Source: Haloprofundus salilacus (GTDB taxonomy: Archaea > Halobacteriota > Halobacteria > Halobacteriales > Haloferacaceae). From it: a stretch of DNA of 64,000 nt. Every line of letters starts with the position of its first letter. The first letter of the stretch is position 1. The translations under genes and the position numbers were made by a program. This document shows positions 17,184-21,374 of the stretch, in pieces. Where the stretch lies: the NCBI RefSeq assembly GCF_020150815.1, contig NZ_CP083724.1, positions 186,001-250,000 on the forward strand, read 5' to 3'. Below the pieces are notes generated by a model that made no database searches, was not told the origin of the DNA, and saw only the letters and a list, made by a program, of their open reading frames with translations.

Positions 17184-19292
17184 TTACCAGCTCTCGAAAG
17201 CAGAGAGCTTCGAGTTCTTCGAGCCCGTCAGCGTGCGTTCGATAGCAGAGCGACGCCAGCCAAGCGGGGAAAGCACGCTTTCTGCGGTCCGAACGAGCAG
17301 TGTCCTGTAGAACTCGACGTCGTATTGAGAGATTTCTTCGTGAGCTAACGCAACTCGATCTCTCGATTGTTTCTCGTCGTCGACGACAACGTAGGAGACG
17401 CTCTCGCCTGGACTCCGACTGAGACCATAATCTTCGGCACGTTCGAGTGCTGCCACATTCCGCGTGTTTTGCGAATACTCGTCAATGTTCTTCGACACTC
17501 GGTTATTGATGAGCAATTGCTCTGATTCGACGTCACCTCGCTGTAGTCGTTTGACCCACAGTTTCAACCGGTCACATACCCATTCCGGTTCTCGATGTTC
17601 GTCGAGTACCTGAACCAGATCCTTCTGCGCTTCCTCGATGAACGCCGGTGTACTACGCTGTCGGCACTCGATACCTCGATACTTGTACTCGTCCTCGTCG
17701 GCGACCTTTCCGAAGTACTTCGTCAACGCGCCAGCGTCGCTGTCGCGCATCGGAACGAACGCAATCCAGTCGTACGCTGCTTCGTACTCCAACCGAATCC
17801 CGACGTCTTTGGTGATCTGCTCGGCGAGTTCGTCGAGCGGTGTTTGCGTTTCGCCCTCAAGTGGACGAACCCAGATACTGTCGACGATGCCGTGGACGAC
17901 CTCCCACCCGTTCTGCTCGAACACCTGCTTCGAGTCGAGGAGAATCTCTCGAGCGAACGCGTTGATCGCCTCGTGACACTCGATACGACCGAACTTCGCG
18001 TTCGAAAAGCCTTGGTAGCCGAAGCAGGAAACCAGAATCCACTTGATCGCGTTTGAGCGACCCTCCAACGCTTTTTCTCGCTCCGGGTCGTCCGTCTCCT
18101 GAAGCTCGGCTTTGATAGCGTCGCGGTCTTCGATGAGCGGTTCGAGGACGTCCGGAAGGTATCCTCGCTCGTCGCAGATGCAGTACCCAAGCCCGGGAAC
18201 GTCTTCGCGACCCTCGTGGCACTCACAGCGAATCTTCTCAGGGCTCACGTTGTGGGTGACGATGATGTTCGGGTACAACGACGAGAAGTCGAGTTCGTGG
18301 ACGTCCTCGTGCAGCCCAACTTTCGGTGCGAACGTAAACCCGCCGCGGTCGGCTTCGTGCAGCTGCCGCATCGTCTTGAACTGCTCGTGCCGCCAGGAGT
18401 TCCACGGGACTAACACACCTCGTTTCCGCGCCTCTCGAATCTGAATCGCTGTAAGGATGTTTCCGATAGACGACCAGGCTAACTCCTGCAGCGGTTTCCC
18501 CGACCGTTCGACGAGGTCGAGACAGCCGTCGAGGTTCGTCTGGTTCCACATGAACGTATTCGAGCGATCGATGATCACCCGTCCGGGGAGGTTATACCGT
18601 GCTGGAGAGTGGCCGACTTTTCCGTAACTGGCGTACGTCGACTCTCCCGCGAGTTGTTGGCATCCGGGGAGACGCCCTAACTCGAACTCTCGATTCCCGA
18701 CCTGCTCGGCTTGCTGGTACAGCTTCGGGATTACCTCACTCGTGTTGAGCAGGAGGACGTCCGGGTCGTCAACACTGAGGCGATTGCTTATTGCCTCAAG
18801 AACTTCCTCCCGTGTTCCGTTCACCGTCTCGTCGCCCAGTTCGACCGTCGTGATCTGTCCACTGGCCAACTGTGCCTCTCGGATAGAAATGTCGAGAACT
18901 GTGAGGTCACCATCGGGTATCGGCGAGACTCCCTCCTCGAGGCAGTATCTGAACTCTCGACTCAAATCGACGTTGTAGCACCGGTATTCTCCGGGTTTTC
19001 TCCATCCCCTGACTTCGTATGCAACATCGGTAACTGCCTCCAAGTCGACAACATCGACGCGAAGCACCGGCTTCGAGTCGTGTCTGAACCCGACTCTCTC
19101 CTCCACCAAGTGCGCGAGTGTGACCTTCGGGTGTCGACGGAATACCTCCGAGACCTCCTCAAGATCGCCATCGCTGTGTGCCGAGATGTATATCGTCGGC
19201 TCGTACGACGTATTTCGAGTGAAATCCGCACCCTCGGGCGTCAGTGACCACTCGAGTACGTCACCGTCGAGGTAGTCGAATTTGAACGACAT
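17184..19292 (-). CDS. polB2: Family B DNA polymerase, PolB2 type, degenerate active site
   Basis: This is a 702-residue protein. Motif A is intact (DFSSLYPNII, about residue 335). Motif B reads KWILVSCFGYQG, with Val where Asn is usual. Motif C reads HGIVDSIW, so the first Asp of the DTD pair is Ile. Exo I reads LDIS rather than DIE, and Exo II (LLNTSE) lacks its Asp. A Cys cluster (CECH...CIC, about 350-375) follows motif A. This matches the archaeal PolB2 lineage described as inactivated B-family polymerases. A structural or lesion-bypass role is proposed for such proteins. It is the last gene of a three-gene operon starting at 20226, three bases after the preceding stop. Confidence 0.85.
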   Translation of the reverse strand: MSFKFDYLDGDVLEWSLTPEGADFTRNTSYEPTIYISAHSDGDLEEVSEVFRRHPKVTLAHLVEERVGFRHDSKPVLRVDVVDLEAVTDVAYEVRGWRKPGEYRCYNVDLSREFRYCLEEGVSPIPDGDLTVLDISIREAQLASGQITTVELGDETVNGTREEVLEAISNRLSVDDPDVLLLNTSEVIPKLYQQAEQVGNREFELGRLPGCQQLAGESTYASYGKVGHSPARYNLPGRVIIDRSNTFMWNQTNLDGCLDLVERSGKPLQELAWSSIGNILTAIQIREARKRGVLVPWNSWRHEQFKTMRQLHEADRGGFTFAPKVGLHEDVHELDFSSLYPNIIVTHNVSPEKIRCECHEGREDVPGLGYCICDERGYLPDVLEPLIEDRDAIKAELQETDDPEREKALEGRSNAIKWILVSCFGYQGFSNAKFGRIECHEAINAFAREILLDSKQVFEQNGWEVVHGIVDSIWVRPLEGETQTPLDELAEQITKDVGIRLEYEAAYDWIAFVPMRDSDAGALTKYFGKVADEDEYKYRGIECRQRSTPAFIEEAQKDLVQVLDEHREPEWVCDRLKLWVKRLQRGDVESEQLLINNRVSKNIDEYSQNTRNVAALERAEDYGLSRSPGESVSYVVVDDEKQSRDRVALAHEEISQYDVEFYRTLLVRTAESVLSPLGWRRSAIERTLTGSKNSKLSAFESW

Positions 19293-19295
19293 GGG

Positions 19296-19556
19296 TTACT
19301 CGACAAACTCGTGGACGTCCATCCGGTTCTCAAGCGACGCAATCCGCTTCTCCTGCTCGAGCGCGATGGAGAGCAGAATCGGAATCTCGACGAACTGGTG
19401 GTTGAGATATCCACCGGCGTCCGCGTGGGCGCGAGCATGCTCGAACAAGTGGTCGAAATGCGGCTGGTCACTGTGCCTGAGTGCTCGTCGGTAGCCCGAC
19501 CATCGGTTCTCGGTTGCTCGAACCATGTCGCGGTACGTCGGGTTAGTTCGCCCCAA
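19296..19556 (-). CDS. Small conserved protein of the PolB2 cassette (DUF8156-like)
   Basis: The 86-residue basic-to-neutral helical protein opens with MGRTNPTYRDMVRATENRW and has a YRRALR...FDHLFEHARAHADA pattern I recall from a small haloarchaeal family (DUF8156, from memory). Its start lies inside the 3' end of the RecA-like gene (14-base overlap), and its stop is three bases before the PolB2 start. Translation is therefore coupled on both sides. Its strict placement between the two suggests a subunit or adaptor of the same complex, which is inference. Confidence 0.7.
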   Translation of the reverse strand: MGRTNPTYRDMVRATENRWSGYRRALRHSDQPHFDHLFEHARAHADAGGYLNHQFVEIPILLSIALEQEKRIASLENRMDVHEFVE

Positions 19557-20226
19557 CGGTGGTCACCTCCGGTGACGTAGTTGCCGGAATCACGGCCGGG
19601 TGACGCGCCGCGAGGATGTGGTTCCAGTACGAAATTGTCGTCTGGACCAGTCCGTTGTCGAGCGGGTAGACGAGCGTCTCGAACGAGTCACCCGAGAATC
19701 GCGGTCCGTACTTGGTCAACTCACACTCCACGGTTTCGGAAACCATGTCGTCGAGTGGTTCGGTGAAGTCGTCGCTTTCCGATAGCGTGAGGAGAACCGG
19801 TACGTCGACGCCATCGAGCAACTCCGTGACTCGCGAAACTGCCTCCGAGAACAGTCGCTCACCTTCGCTGCGTCGGAGGTCGTCAGTCCGGTAGAACCAA
19901 TCGAACTCCGGAAGGACGACGAGTGGCGTGTCCTCTGCGATTTGATCGGAGAGGTCCGTCAGCAGGCTGTAATGCTGCCACGGAGTGAAGCCTCGAGCGA
20001 TGTGAACGCGGTCGAGTACTCTCATCGTCGGTGCGATTCGGCACAGTTGCTGCGTCGTCCCGTTTCCACGAGCGTCGACCCAGACGGCGTCCCCGCCTTC
20101 TAAGAGCAGGTGGTCGACGACGAGCGAGTGTAGTGCCCCCGTCGCTCTCTGATTCGCCTGTAAGAGCGTCGCACCCTTCTGTAGTGTCGGGAGCGTCGGT
20201 TGGTCGCTGGTCTGCTGATACATCAC
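19543..20226 (-). CDS. RecA/RadA-fold protein with degenerate Walker A
   Basis: The 227-residue protein follows the RecA core order. The region in Walker A position reads ANQRATGALHSL, without the GKS/T lysine. GGDAVWVDARGNGTT matches the strand after helix A (VVYIDTE in RadA). LVVLPEFDWFY is a Walker B-like strand with Asp, followed by a charged loop. ATP hydrolysis is therefore doubtful. It is the first gene of the operon with the small protein and PolB2. A RecA paralogue beside a dead polymerase recalls bacterial ImuA/ImuB mutasome gene sets; that is an analogy, not a homology claim. A TTCCGA repeat and a TATA-like GGTTATGAC precede the start. Confidence 0.65.
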   Translation of the reverse strand: MMYQQTSDQPTLPTLQKGATLLQANQRATGALHSLVVDHLLLEGGDAVWVDARGNGTTQQLCRIAPTMRVLDRVHIARGFTPWQHYSLLTDLSDQIAEDTPLVVLPEFDWFYRTDDLRRSEGERLFSEAVSRVTELLDGVDVPVLLTLSESDDFTEPLDDMVSETVECELTKYGPRFSGDSFETLVYPLDNGLVQTTISYWNHILAARHPAVIPATTSPEVTTVGAN

Positions 20227-20270
20227 AGAAGTATCTAGGCGGCTTTCGTGTCATAACCAAGACAGGGCCG

Positions 20271-20287
20271 TTTCCGAAATTCCGATA
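20271..20287 (-). promoter_or_regulatory. TTCCGA direct repeat upstream of the PolB2 operon
   Basis: TTTCCGAAATTCCGATA lies 45-61 bases upstream of the RecA-like start, just ahead of a TATA-like element. It is nearly the same as the motif upstream of the Orc1/Cdc6 gene, which implies a shared regulator or origin-binding protein. Confidence 0.45.
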
Positions 20288-20294
20288 CTGTCTT

Positions 20295-21308
20295 TCAGGA
20301 CGCTTCCTCCCGGGGTCTGTAGGTTCGCGCCCGTTTCTCTCCTTGGGCGATGATGAGGCGGTACTGCTCCATCTTCTGGAGGTAGTTACGAACCGTTCGC
20401 TTCGTCTTCGGTTCGTCGACGTGTTCGCAGTATTCGTCGTAGAGATCGCCCGGACTCATCTCGCCATCCTCGAGTAAAATCTCGTAGAGGACGCGCTGAT
20501 GCTCGCGTAATTTGTCGGCAGTCGAGCGCCGGATCTCTTCGCGTCCGTCAGGGACAGCCTCGTGTAGAATCTCGTTCGAGATTGTGTCGCGAGACTGCTG
20601 ATCTGCGAGTCGTGCAGCGTTGCGGAGAATACTGATTCCGATTCTCGCATCGCCGGCTGCCGCGTCGGCGATGAGAGCGAGTTGTTGATTTCCGATAGCG
20701 CTTTCCGATAGTCCCCAGCGTGCCCGCGCAGCGAGAATCGCGACGAGTTCATCGAGGTGGTACCTATCAAATTCAACGCGGACGCTCCCATGCAGACGGC
20801 TCGTCAACCGTTCGTCGAACATCGAGAACAGGTCCTCCTCGCGATTTGCGATGAGCACCATCGTAATCTTCCGCGTGCGATAGAGGTCGTAGAGGACGCT
20901 CTTGTCTTCGAGTTGATCGACTTCGTCGAGAATGACAACGTAGTGTGGACCGTCGTACTCTTGGATTCGAGTCAGGAGTTCGTCCCGTGGTGTGGAGCGT
21001 CGATGGATATCCACTGTCTGGTCGATGCCTTCGAGAATGCGGTAGAGCACACGAAACCGGGTGTAGTCCTGCCAGCAGTTGATATACTGGGTGTTGATGT
21101 CGAGGACGTTCTCACGAAGACGTTCGACCGTGAACTGCGCAATGCATGTCTTTCCGGCACCGGATGGTCCGAGCAGAAGCGATGTTTCCCCGGGCTGCCC
21201 GTCCATGATCGGCTTGAGCGCGTTCGAGAGCACGTTCGTCTCCTGATTGCGATGCTCGATCTCCTGAGGGATGAACTCGGGTTGTAGCACGCGAGCATCG
21301 TTGATCAT
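20295..21308 (-). CDS. Orc1/Cdc6-type replication initiator
   Basis: I chose the ATG at 21306-21308 (337 residues) because it begins directly with the conserved N-terminal part (VLQPEFIPQEIEHRNQE). A longer in-frame start lies across the probable promoter. Walker A is GPSGAGKT, Walker B VVILDEVDQLED, sensor 1 IANREE, with an Arg finger in RLTSRLHG and sensor 2 in AAGDARIGISILRNA. The last 80 residues form a winged helix. Haloarchaea carry several Orc1/Cdc6 paralogues; accessory ones accompany plasmids or islands. The gene is just upstream of the PolB2 operon on the same strand but has its own promoter region. Confidence 0.85.
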   Translation of the reverse strand: MINDARVLQPEFIPQEIEHRNQETNVLSNALKPIMDGQPGETSLLLGPSGAGKTCIAQFTVERLRENVLDINTQYINCWQDYTRFRVLYRILEGIDQTVDIHRRSTPRDELLTRIQEYDGPHYVVILDEVDQLEDKSVLYDLYRTRKITMVLIANREEDLFSMFDERLTSRLHGSVRVEFDRYHLDELVAILAARARWGLSESAIGNQQLALIADAAAGDARIGISILRNAARLADQQSRDTISNEILHEAVPDGREEIRRSTADKLREHQRVLYEILLEDGEMSPGDLYDEYCEHVDEPKTKRTVRNYLQKMEQYRLIIAQGEKRARTYRPREEAS

Positions 21309-21356
21309 GCTTACCAGCACTCTTCCTCGTGAACTGTAATAAACGGAACCGGGTGA

Positions 21357-21374
21357 TTTCCGATAGTTCCGATA
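21357..21374 (-). promoter_or_regulatory. TTCCGATA direct repeat upstream of orc1/cdc6
   Basis: TTTCCGATAGTTCCGATA, two TTCCGATA units nine bases apart, lies about 50-66 bases upstream of the initiator start, ahead of a TATA-like TTTATTA. The 10-mer TTTCCGATAG recurs at 20690, 20703 and 19776 in the same orientation. It could be an operator or an initiator-binding site. Confidence 0.45.

Follow-up and report, generated by a model that had tools for sequence, protein, structure and literature searches.

An archaeal operon encoding an inactivated RadA (iRadA), with an arORC2 gene as its neighbour, was first described by Makarova 2014 (PMC4104785), and Timinskas 2025 (PMC11791011) modelled a heteropentamer of iRadA, the B-family DNA polymerase PolB2 and three copies of its partner PPB2, which was named the PolB2 mutasome. 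In the 2025 model, PolB2 binds iRadA at an interface that mimics the contact within RadA filaments, PPB2 places an MGRT arm close to the active site of the polymerase, and either PolB2 or iRadA carries a motif for binding PCNA (PMC11791011). Here we analyse a cassette of this kind in a 64,000-nt window of Haloprofundus salilacus contig NZ_CP083724.1, the stretch to which our numbering refers; all cassette genes lie on its minus strand. Very likely, the cassette is the haloarchaeal version of the PolB2 mutasome operon, accompanied by a gene for an Orc-type regulator of its own; as such it represents an already published error-prone repair polymerase complex rather than a new system. What looks new is a promoter element almost exclusive to the mutasome genes and their linked orc1/cdc6-family gene (orc).

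In Sulfolobus islandicus, polymerase activity and induction have been shown experimentally, whereas the window cassette is known from sequence. The PolB2 homologue of that species, Dpo2, shares the motif C substitution and the dead exonuclease: the first motif C Asp is missing there too (401-IID-403; PMC11791011), and the exonuclease-free enzyme incorporates nucleotides robustly but distributively and efficiently extends mismatched and lesion-paired primer ends (PMC8764526). Damage-induced mutagenesis in S. islandicus needs Dpo2 (as reviewed in PMC11791011), and the damage response is governed by an Orc-family protein, Orc1-2, which binds an ANTTTC element in its own and other promoters (PMC9738581). 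This DNA damage-responsive element (DDRE) differs from the haloarchaeal one, in which tandem GGAA repeats stand at a fixed distance from TTAT.

With the PolB2 mutasome, the window cassette shares the three proteins, the order iRadA-PPB2-PolB2, the MGRT arm, the D(K/R) motif, the loss of the first motif C Asp, the orc neighbour and a PCNA-interacting protein (PIP)-like motif on PolB2 or iRadA; there is no difference in kind. By analogy it also resembles Escherichia coli Pol V (UmuC, UmuD' and RecA), where a polymerase and a RecA-family protein docked through its oligomerisation surface are joined by a small subunit with an inserted arm (PMC11791011). Pol V differs in having a Y-family polymerase, an active RecA, an unrelated small subunit and LexA control. 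The bacterial ImuA/ImuB/DnaE2 mutagenesis cassette likewise includes a RecA-like subunit without recombinase activity; there, however, ImuB serves as a Y-family scaffold without activity and synthesis falls to DnaE2, whereas PolB2 would be both polymerase and binding platform. An earlier reading of this DNA from its letters alone (the sequence-only reading) had drawn precisely that parallel. The published PolB2 mutasome does bear out a conserved, mutasome-like set of three genes that includes a small adaptor and a RecA-fold subunit with a dead ATPase, but the idea of an inactive polymerase as scaffold is not supported. None of the neighbouring genes examined encodes a second polymerase, and the cassette's own is of the B family, rather than a Y-family ImuB with a C-family DnaE2. 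Pol V or Pol zeta appear to fit better as parallels, since DNA synthesis is expected of the polymerase subunit itself, whereas ImuA/ImuB/DnaE2 uses a separate polymerase.

A promoter element of the mutasome genes

In the window and its relatives, orc and iRadA are each preceded by tandem TATCGGAA-like repeats whose spacing to a TTAT box is constant. In general form, the element reads [GT]GAA-N4/5-GGAA-N15-YTAT and lies about 25-30 bp before the start codon. We counted its core, GGAA-N15-YTAT, in de-duplicated sets of upstream sequences with shuffled sequences as control, and found it in 28/37 iRadA promoters (shuffle mean 0.2) and in 18/36 orc promoters (shuffle mean 0.14). A relaxed form, picked after viewing the orc promoters of the major clade, occurs in 26 of those 36 (shuffle mean 0.07). 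The strongest test comes from polB2 genes detached from ppb2, since the pattern was not built on them. Separated from ppb2, such genes need a promoter of their own, and the core (spacer of 14-16 allowed) stands before 16 of 17, compared with 0 of 22 polB2 genes directly behind ppb2. At the sole exception, locus L041, the polB2 frame is broken by a stop, so the start is probably misplaced.

Genome-wide scans gave the same picture. The 3.73 Mb genome of H. salilacus holds exactly two matches to GGAA-N4/5-GGAA-N15-TTAT, both in the cassette, and two congeners have the same pair with identical spacing. Across 146 genomes this pattern matched 83 times, against 12 for a reversed control; among 30 matches that we opened, 23 sit 7-31 bp before the start of orc (15), iRadA (7) or polB2 (1). 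A second pattern, GGAA-N3-ACACGCC-N5-TTAT, matched 72 times in 242 genomes (control, 0), and the 30 opened comprised 17 before iRadA, 11 before polB2, one before a polB2 remnant and one other. As the opened matches fall mostly at these genes, the element is almost exclusive to the mutasome genes and their orc. Allowing one mismatch in the H. salilacus genome yielded six matches (control, two), none of which, besides the orc site, has a convincing gene. A strict 9-bp TCGGAA tandem, with one match in the genome, was too narrow and was replaced by the GGAA-N4/5-GGAA-N15-TTAT pattern. The exact 9-mer ATCGGAAAT in the window is only mildly enriched, and we therefore base the claim on the spaced element.

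Haloarchaeal transcripts are often leaderless, which fits the short distance from TTAT to the start codon, and the repeats would thus lie just upstream of the B recognition element (BRE)/TATA region of leaderless genes. We searched the literature for promoter motifs tied to Orc or to damage in haloarchaea and found nothing relevant, and the accessible parts of PMC11791011 and PMC4104785 do not mention the element, which is apparently the new part of the finding.

Further copies of TATCGGAA occur within the coding sequences of orc, iRadA and polB2 (20697-20710, 19784 and 18468, minus strand). The window holds ten copies on the minus strand, seven of them inside the cassette, and none on the plus strand. 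The pair internal to orc recurs in loci L001 and L042, as coding constraint or as intragenic sites. An element-like site, GGAAATCCGGAAACGACCCGGCACGACTTAT, lies 110 bp before a radical-SAM gene (L155, 1319-1349) and is either a possible non-mutasome target or a chance match.

The cassette and its products

Transcription on the minus strand proceeds from orc, directly upstream of the three-gene set, through iRadA and ppb2 to polB2 (Table 1). Translation of the open reading frames showed that the span of 17184-20226 given by the sequence-only reading is exact. Its three genes were right, but it missed the orc gene of the cassette and a second iRadA-PPB2 copy described below. It had also pictured the genes as locked together by overlapping starts and stops, which is true of iRadA and ppb2, with a 14-nt overlap, but not of ppb2 and polB2, which are 3 nt apart. 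Of the two contigs in the genome, the window sits on the second, which is 488,583 bases long. The closest named relative that we found is a plasmid of Haloprofundus salinisoli; its PolB2 is 88.9% identical, and its genes, the Cdc6 gene among them, stand in the same order. The iRadA of that plasmid (locus L159, 6067-6750) is annotated too short, with a coding sequence from 6268 and homology to the window protein from 6067.

Table 1. Genes and promoter elements of the PolB2 mutasome cassette in the H. salilacus window.
Feature	Position	Strand	Evidence
polB2, B-family polymerase of the PolB2 group, 702 aa	17184-19292	-	NF004418, Pfam DNA_pol_B, motif comparison with own PolB3
ppb2, arCOG07300-like partner of PolB2, 86 aa, TTG start	19296-19556	-	Translation, homologues, MGRT N terminus
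iRadA, RadA/Rad51-fold, 227 aa, GTG start	19543-20226	-	Profile against PDB, AlphaFold and Foldseek
Promoter element before iRadA, GGAATTTCGGAAACGGCCCTGTCTTGGTTAT; TTAT ends 26 bp before GTG	20253-20283	-	Genome-wide scan, family-wide test
orc1/cdc6-family gene, arORC2-type neighbour, 337 aa, candidate regulator	20295-21308	-	TIGR02928, Pfam, synteny in relatives
Promoter element before orc, GGAACTATCGGAAATCACCCGGTTCCGTTTAT; TTAT ends 30 bp before ATG	21339-21370	-	Genome-wide scans

PolB2 lies above the NF004418 cut-off of 692 bits with a score of 1099.8, and its Pfam match is DNA_pol_B at 8e-29. Aligned with PolB3 of the same genome, it reads HGIVDS for YGDTDS in motif C, where Ile replaces the first Asp, and KWILVSCFGY for KVIMNSLYG in motif B, where the Asn is gone; no acidic residue stands opposite the acids of PolB3 motifs Exo I, II and III, and motif A is intact. 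The Asp residues that remain are D335 in motif A and D471 in motif C. The degeneracy described in the sequence-only reading is therefore real, and its motif C form is fixed, as HGIVDS is identical in 57/57 haloarchaeal PolB2 proteins, with motif A and the K/R-YF region retained. The D(K/R) motif, which PMC11791011 gives as the contact site for PPB2, is IIDRS in the window protein. Its C terminus carries a PIP-like KLSAF, and a PIP-like [LI]xx[FWY] falls within the last 25 residues of 56/57 PolB2 (shuffled mean 12.6) and 31/49 iRadA proteins (shuffled mean 3.3). According to a review, polB2 is deletable in Haloferax volcanii, a result unpublished there (PMC7776575).

A profile of 21 iRadA proteins matches RadA/Rad51 chains in PDB with an E value of 3e-10, beginning just after the Walker A motif (P-loop). 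The position of the Walker B Asp reads VVLP, no Walker A or B residues are present, and the RadA N-terminal domain is missing. The AlphaFold model, with a predicted local distance difference test (pLDDT) score of 81, retrieved RadA, Rad51 and Dmc1 in Foldseek (best E value 1e-10). Profile and model together confirm a predicted RadA/Rad51-fold protein without ATPase motifs, and the sequence-only reading was correct in calling the first gene RecA-like without Walker A. PPB2 begins MGRTNPTYRD and so carries the N-terminal MGRT motif described in PMC11791011. Homologues were found in 53 fetched loci, and those aligned share this N terminus; a short-peptide search of genome contigs found only four loci, which reflects the reach of that method for a small divergent protein.

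Conservation, selection and further copies

PolB2 exceeds the curated cut-off in 241/391 haloarchaeal genomes. Most fetched loci keep the order and strand of iRadA-PPB2-PolB2, usually with an orc gene of the same family nearby, so the conservation across Halobacteria that the sequence-only reading proposed to check is indeed found. In a minority, other genes lie between polB2 and the iRadA-PPB2 pair, or polB2 stands by itself. In a comparison of the window with H. salinisoli, the ratio of nonsynonymous to synonymous substitution rates (dN/dS) is about 0.10 for polB2, 0.18 for ppb2, 0.15 for iRadA and 0.03 for orc, indicating purifying selection over the full length. Given this selection and the conserved synteny, the cassette is well above chance.

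The second copy, on the same replicon (C2:118521-120448, locus L106), consists of an iRadA paralogue (69% identity) and a ppb2 paralogue (75%), with a different Orc gene behind them, a truncated DUF7845 gene upstream and no polB2. We looked for the promoter element at this copy and found none. Additional two-gene copies of iRadA-PPB2 in haloarchaea were already noted in 2014 (PMC4104785).

Two full RadA paralogues with intact Walker A lie about 7 kb apart on the chromosome (L107, C1:2803000-2820000; also L091, L092 and L095), one of them adjoined by an open reading frame resembling a UV-damage endonuclease. In Leptospira phages of LE1 type (about 87 kb), one encoded polymerase aligns with PolB2 at about 33% identity across 75% of the query, and a phage-borne relative of PolB2 may thus exist.

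Proposed mechanism and alternatives

The genes, motifs, iRadA fold, conservation, selection and promoter element observed here can be combined with the S. islandicus and modelling literature, which suggests the polymerase activity, the extender role, damage induction and the contacts of iRadA and PPB2. After DNA damage, the Orc1/Cdc6-like protein would act at the tandem GGAA element of the orc and iRadA promoters, and iRadA, PPB2 and PolB2 would be produced together. No longer binding or hydrolysing ATP, iRadA would dock PolB2 by imitating the contact of a RadA filament, while a PPB2 trimer would place one of its MGRT arms close to the active site of the polymerase. The complex would reach the PCNA clamp by a C-terminal PIP-like motif, here on PolB2, and PolB2, without proofreading, would extend primers with distorted or mismatched ends past lesions, giving rise to damage-induced mutations. 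We infer the role of Orc as a DNA-binding regulator, the binding of PCNA and the function in this organism.

Several points weigh against this reading. Our model of PolB2 is poor (pLDDT 64), too weak for active-site geometry, and no purified or assayed haloarchaeal PolB2 was found in the accessible literature. Damage induction in H. salilacus would be carried over from S. islandicus, the shared element being indirect. The element pattern was first derived from some of the loci on which it was tested, and some major-clade orc promoters have a variant (TTTCCGGAAACRACCC with TTTTTA) instead of the tandem form. Binding of Orc to the element is a prediction, and the element only weakly resembles the Sulfolobus DDRE (ANTTTC, PMC9738581).

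The sequence-only reading took PolB2 to be catalytically dead. On that account it would join iRadA and PPB2 in recruiting PolD, PolB3 or a Y-family enzyme to lesions, in the manner of ImuA/ImuB/DnaE2, and both the lost motif C Asp, motif B Asn and exonuclease acids and the presence of separate PolB3, PolD and Y-family polymerases in the same genome would suit it. However, Dpo2 is robustly active despite an identical loss in motif C and a dead exonuclease (PMC8764526), and an intact motif A with strictly kept remaining motif C residues is unexpected for a pure scaffold. We therefore consider inactivity unsupported and a dead scaffold unlikely; since Dpo2 with the same loss is a robust polymerase, haloarchaeal PolB2 is probably active as well. 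Robust, processive synthesis by purified PolB2 had been named as contrary evidence, and the homologue Dpo2 goes part of the way, with synthesis that is robust but distributive.

Even less probable is that Orc, iRadA, PPB2 and PolB2 form a module for alternative or regulated replication start, although a role in replication initiation was also suggested by Makarova 2014 (PMC4104785), an orc1/cdc6 gene belongs to the cassette in most loci, and copies are often found on large plasmids. The replicon has several other Orc genes, Sulfolobus Orc1-2 is a damage-response regulator and not an initiator (PMC9738581), the element is located at promoters, and the Dpo2 genetics indicate damage-induced mutagenesis (reviewed in PMC11791011). 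Degenerate-looking motifs in a plasmid-borne operon could also signal lost function, the more so as truncated polB2 and frameshifted iRadA copies occur elsewhere and the second cassette in this genome is without polB2. We rejected such decay as next to inconceivable, because dN/dS (0.03-0.18) is far below 1 for all four genes, identical substitutions are fixed class-wide, and the promoter element is conserved.

A candidate regulator and its implications

The Orc protein scores 174 bits against TIGR02928, just below the cut-off of 181, and matches Pfam AAA_22 and Cdc6_lid; it is an AAA+ protein with an intact Walker A and a weak winged-helix match, and its gene is syntenic in relatives. As its own promoter has the element and S. 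islandicus Orc1-2 regulates the damage response, the linked Orc protein is the natural candidate and probably acts as regulator through the element. We further propose a dedicated haloarchaeal mutasome regulon, in which the element accompanies each PolB2 mutasome transcription unit to whatever place it moves and the linked, autoregulated Orc binds it, inducing translesion synthesis; for this broader proposal we judge the balance to be about even.

Some genomes for which only one B-family polymerase match was found retain the orc gene and the element. In three such genomes, where no PolB2 was seen, orc is followed by a conserved gene for about 200 residues (L149, 2621-3343; L150, 2308-3015; L152, 2477-3190), which has CxxC motifs and no significant Pfam match and is a possible alternative partner.

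The cassette itself confirms the known archaeal counterpart of bacterial mutasomes and leaves that picture unchanged. The promoter element matters more, as it bears on how haloarchaea turn on damage-induced mutagenesis without LexA, and it supplies a specific sequence, a candidate regulator of the Orc family and a short list of targets. If the proposed regulon is real, an Orc-type AAA+ protein would take the place of LexA in the control of haloarchaeal mutagenesis, with hardly any targets apart from its own gene and the mutasome.

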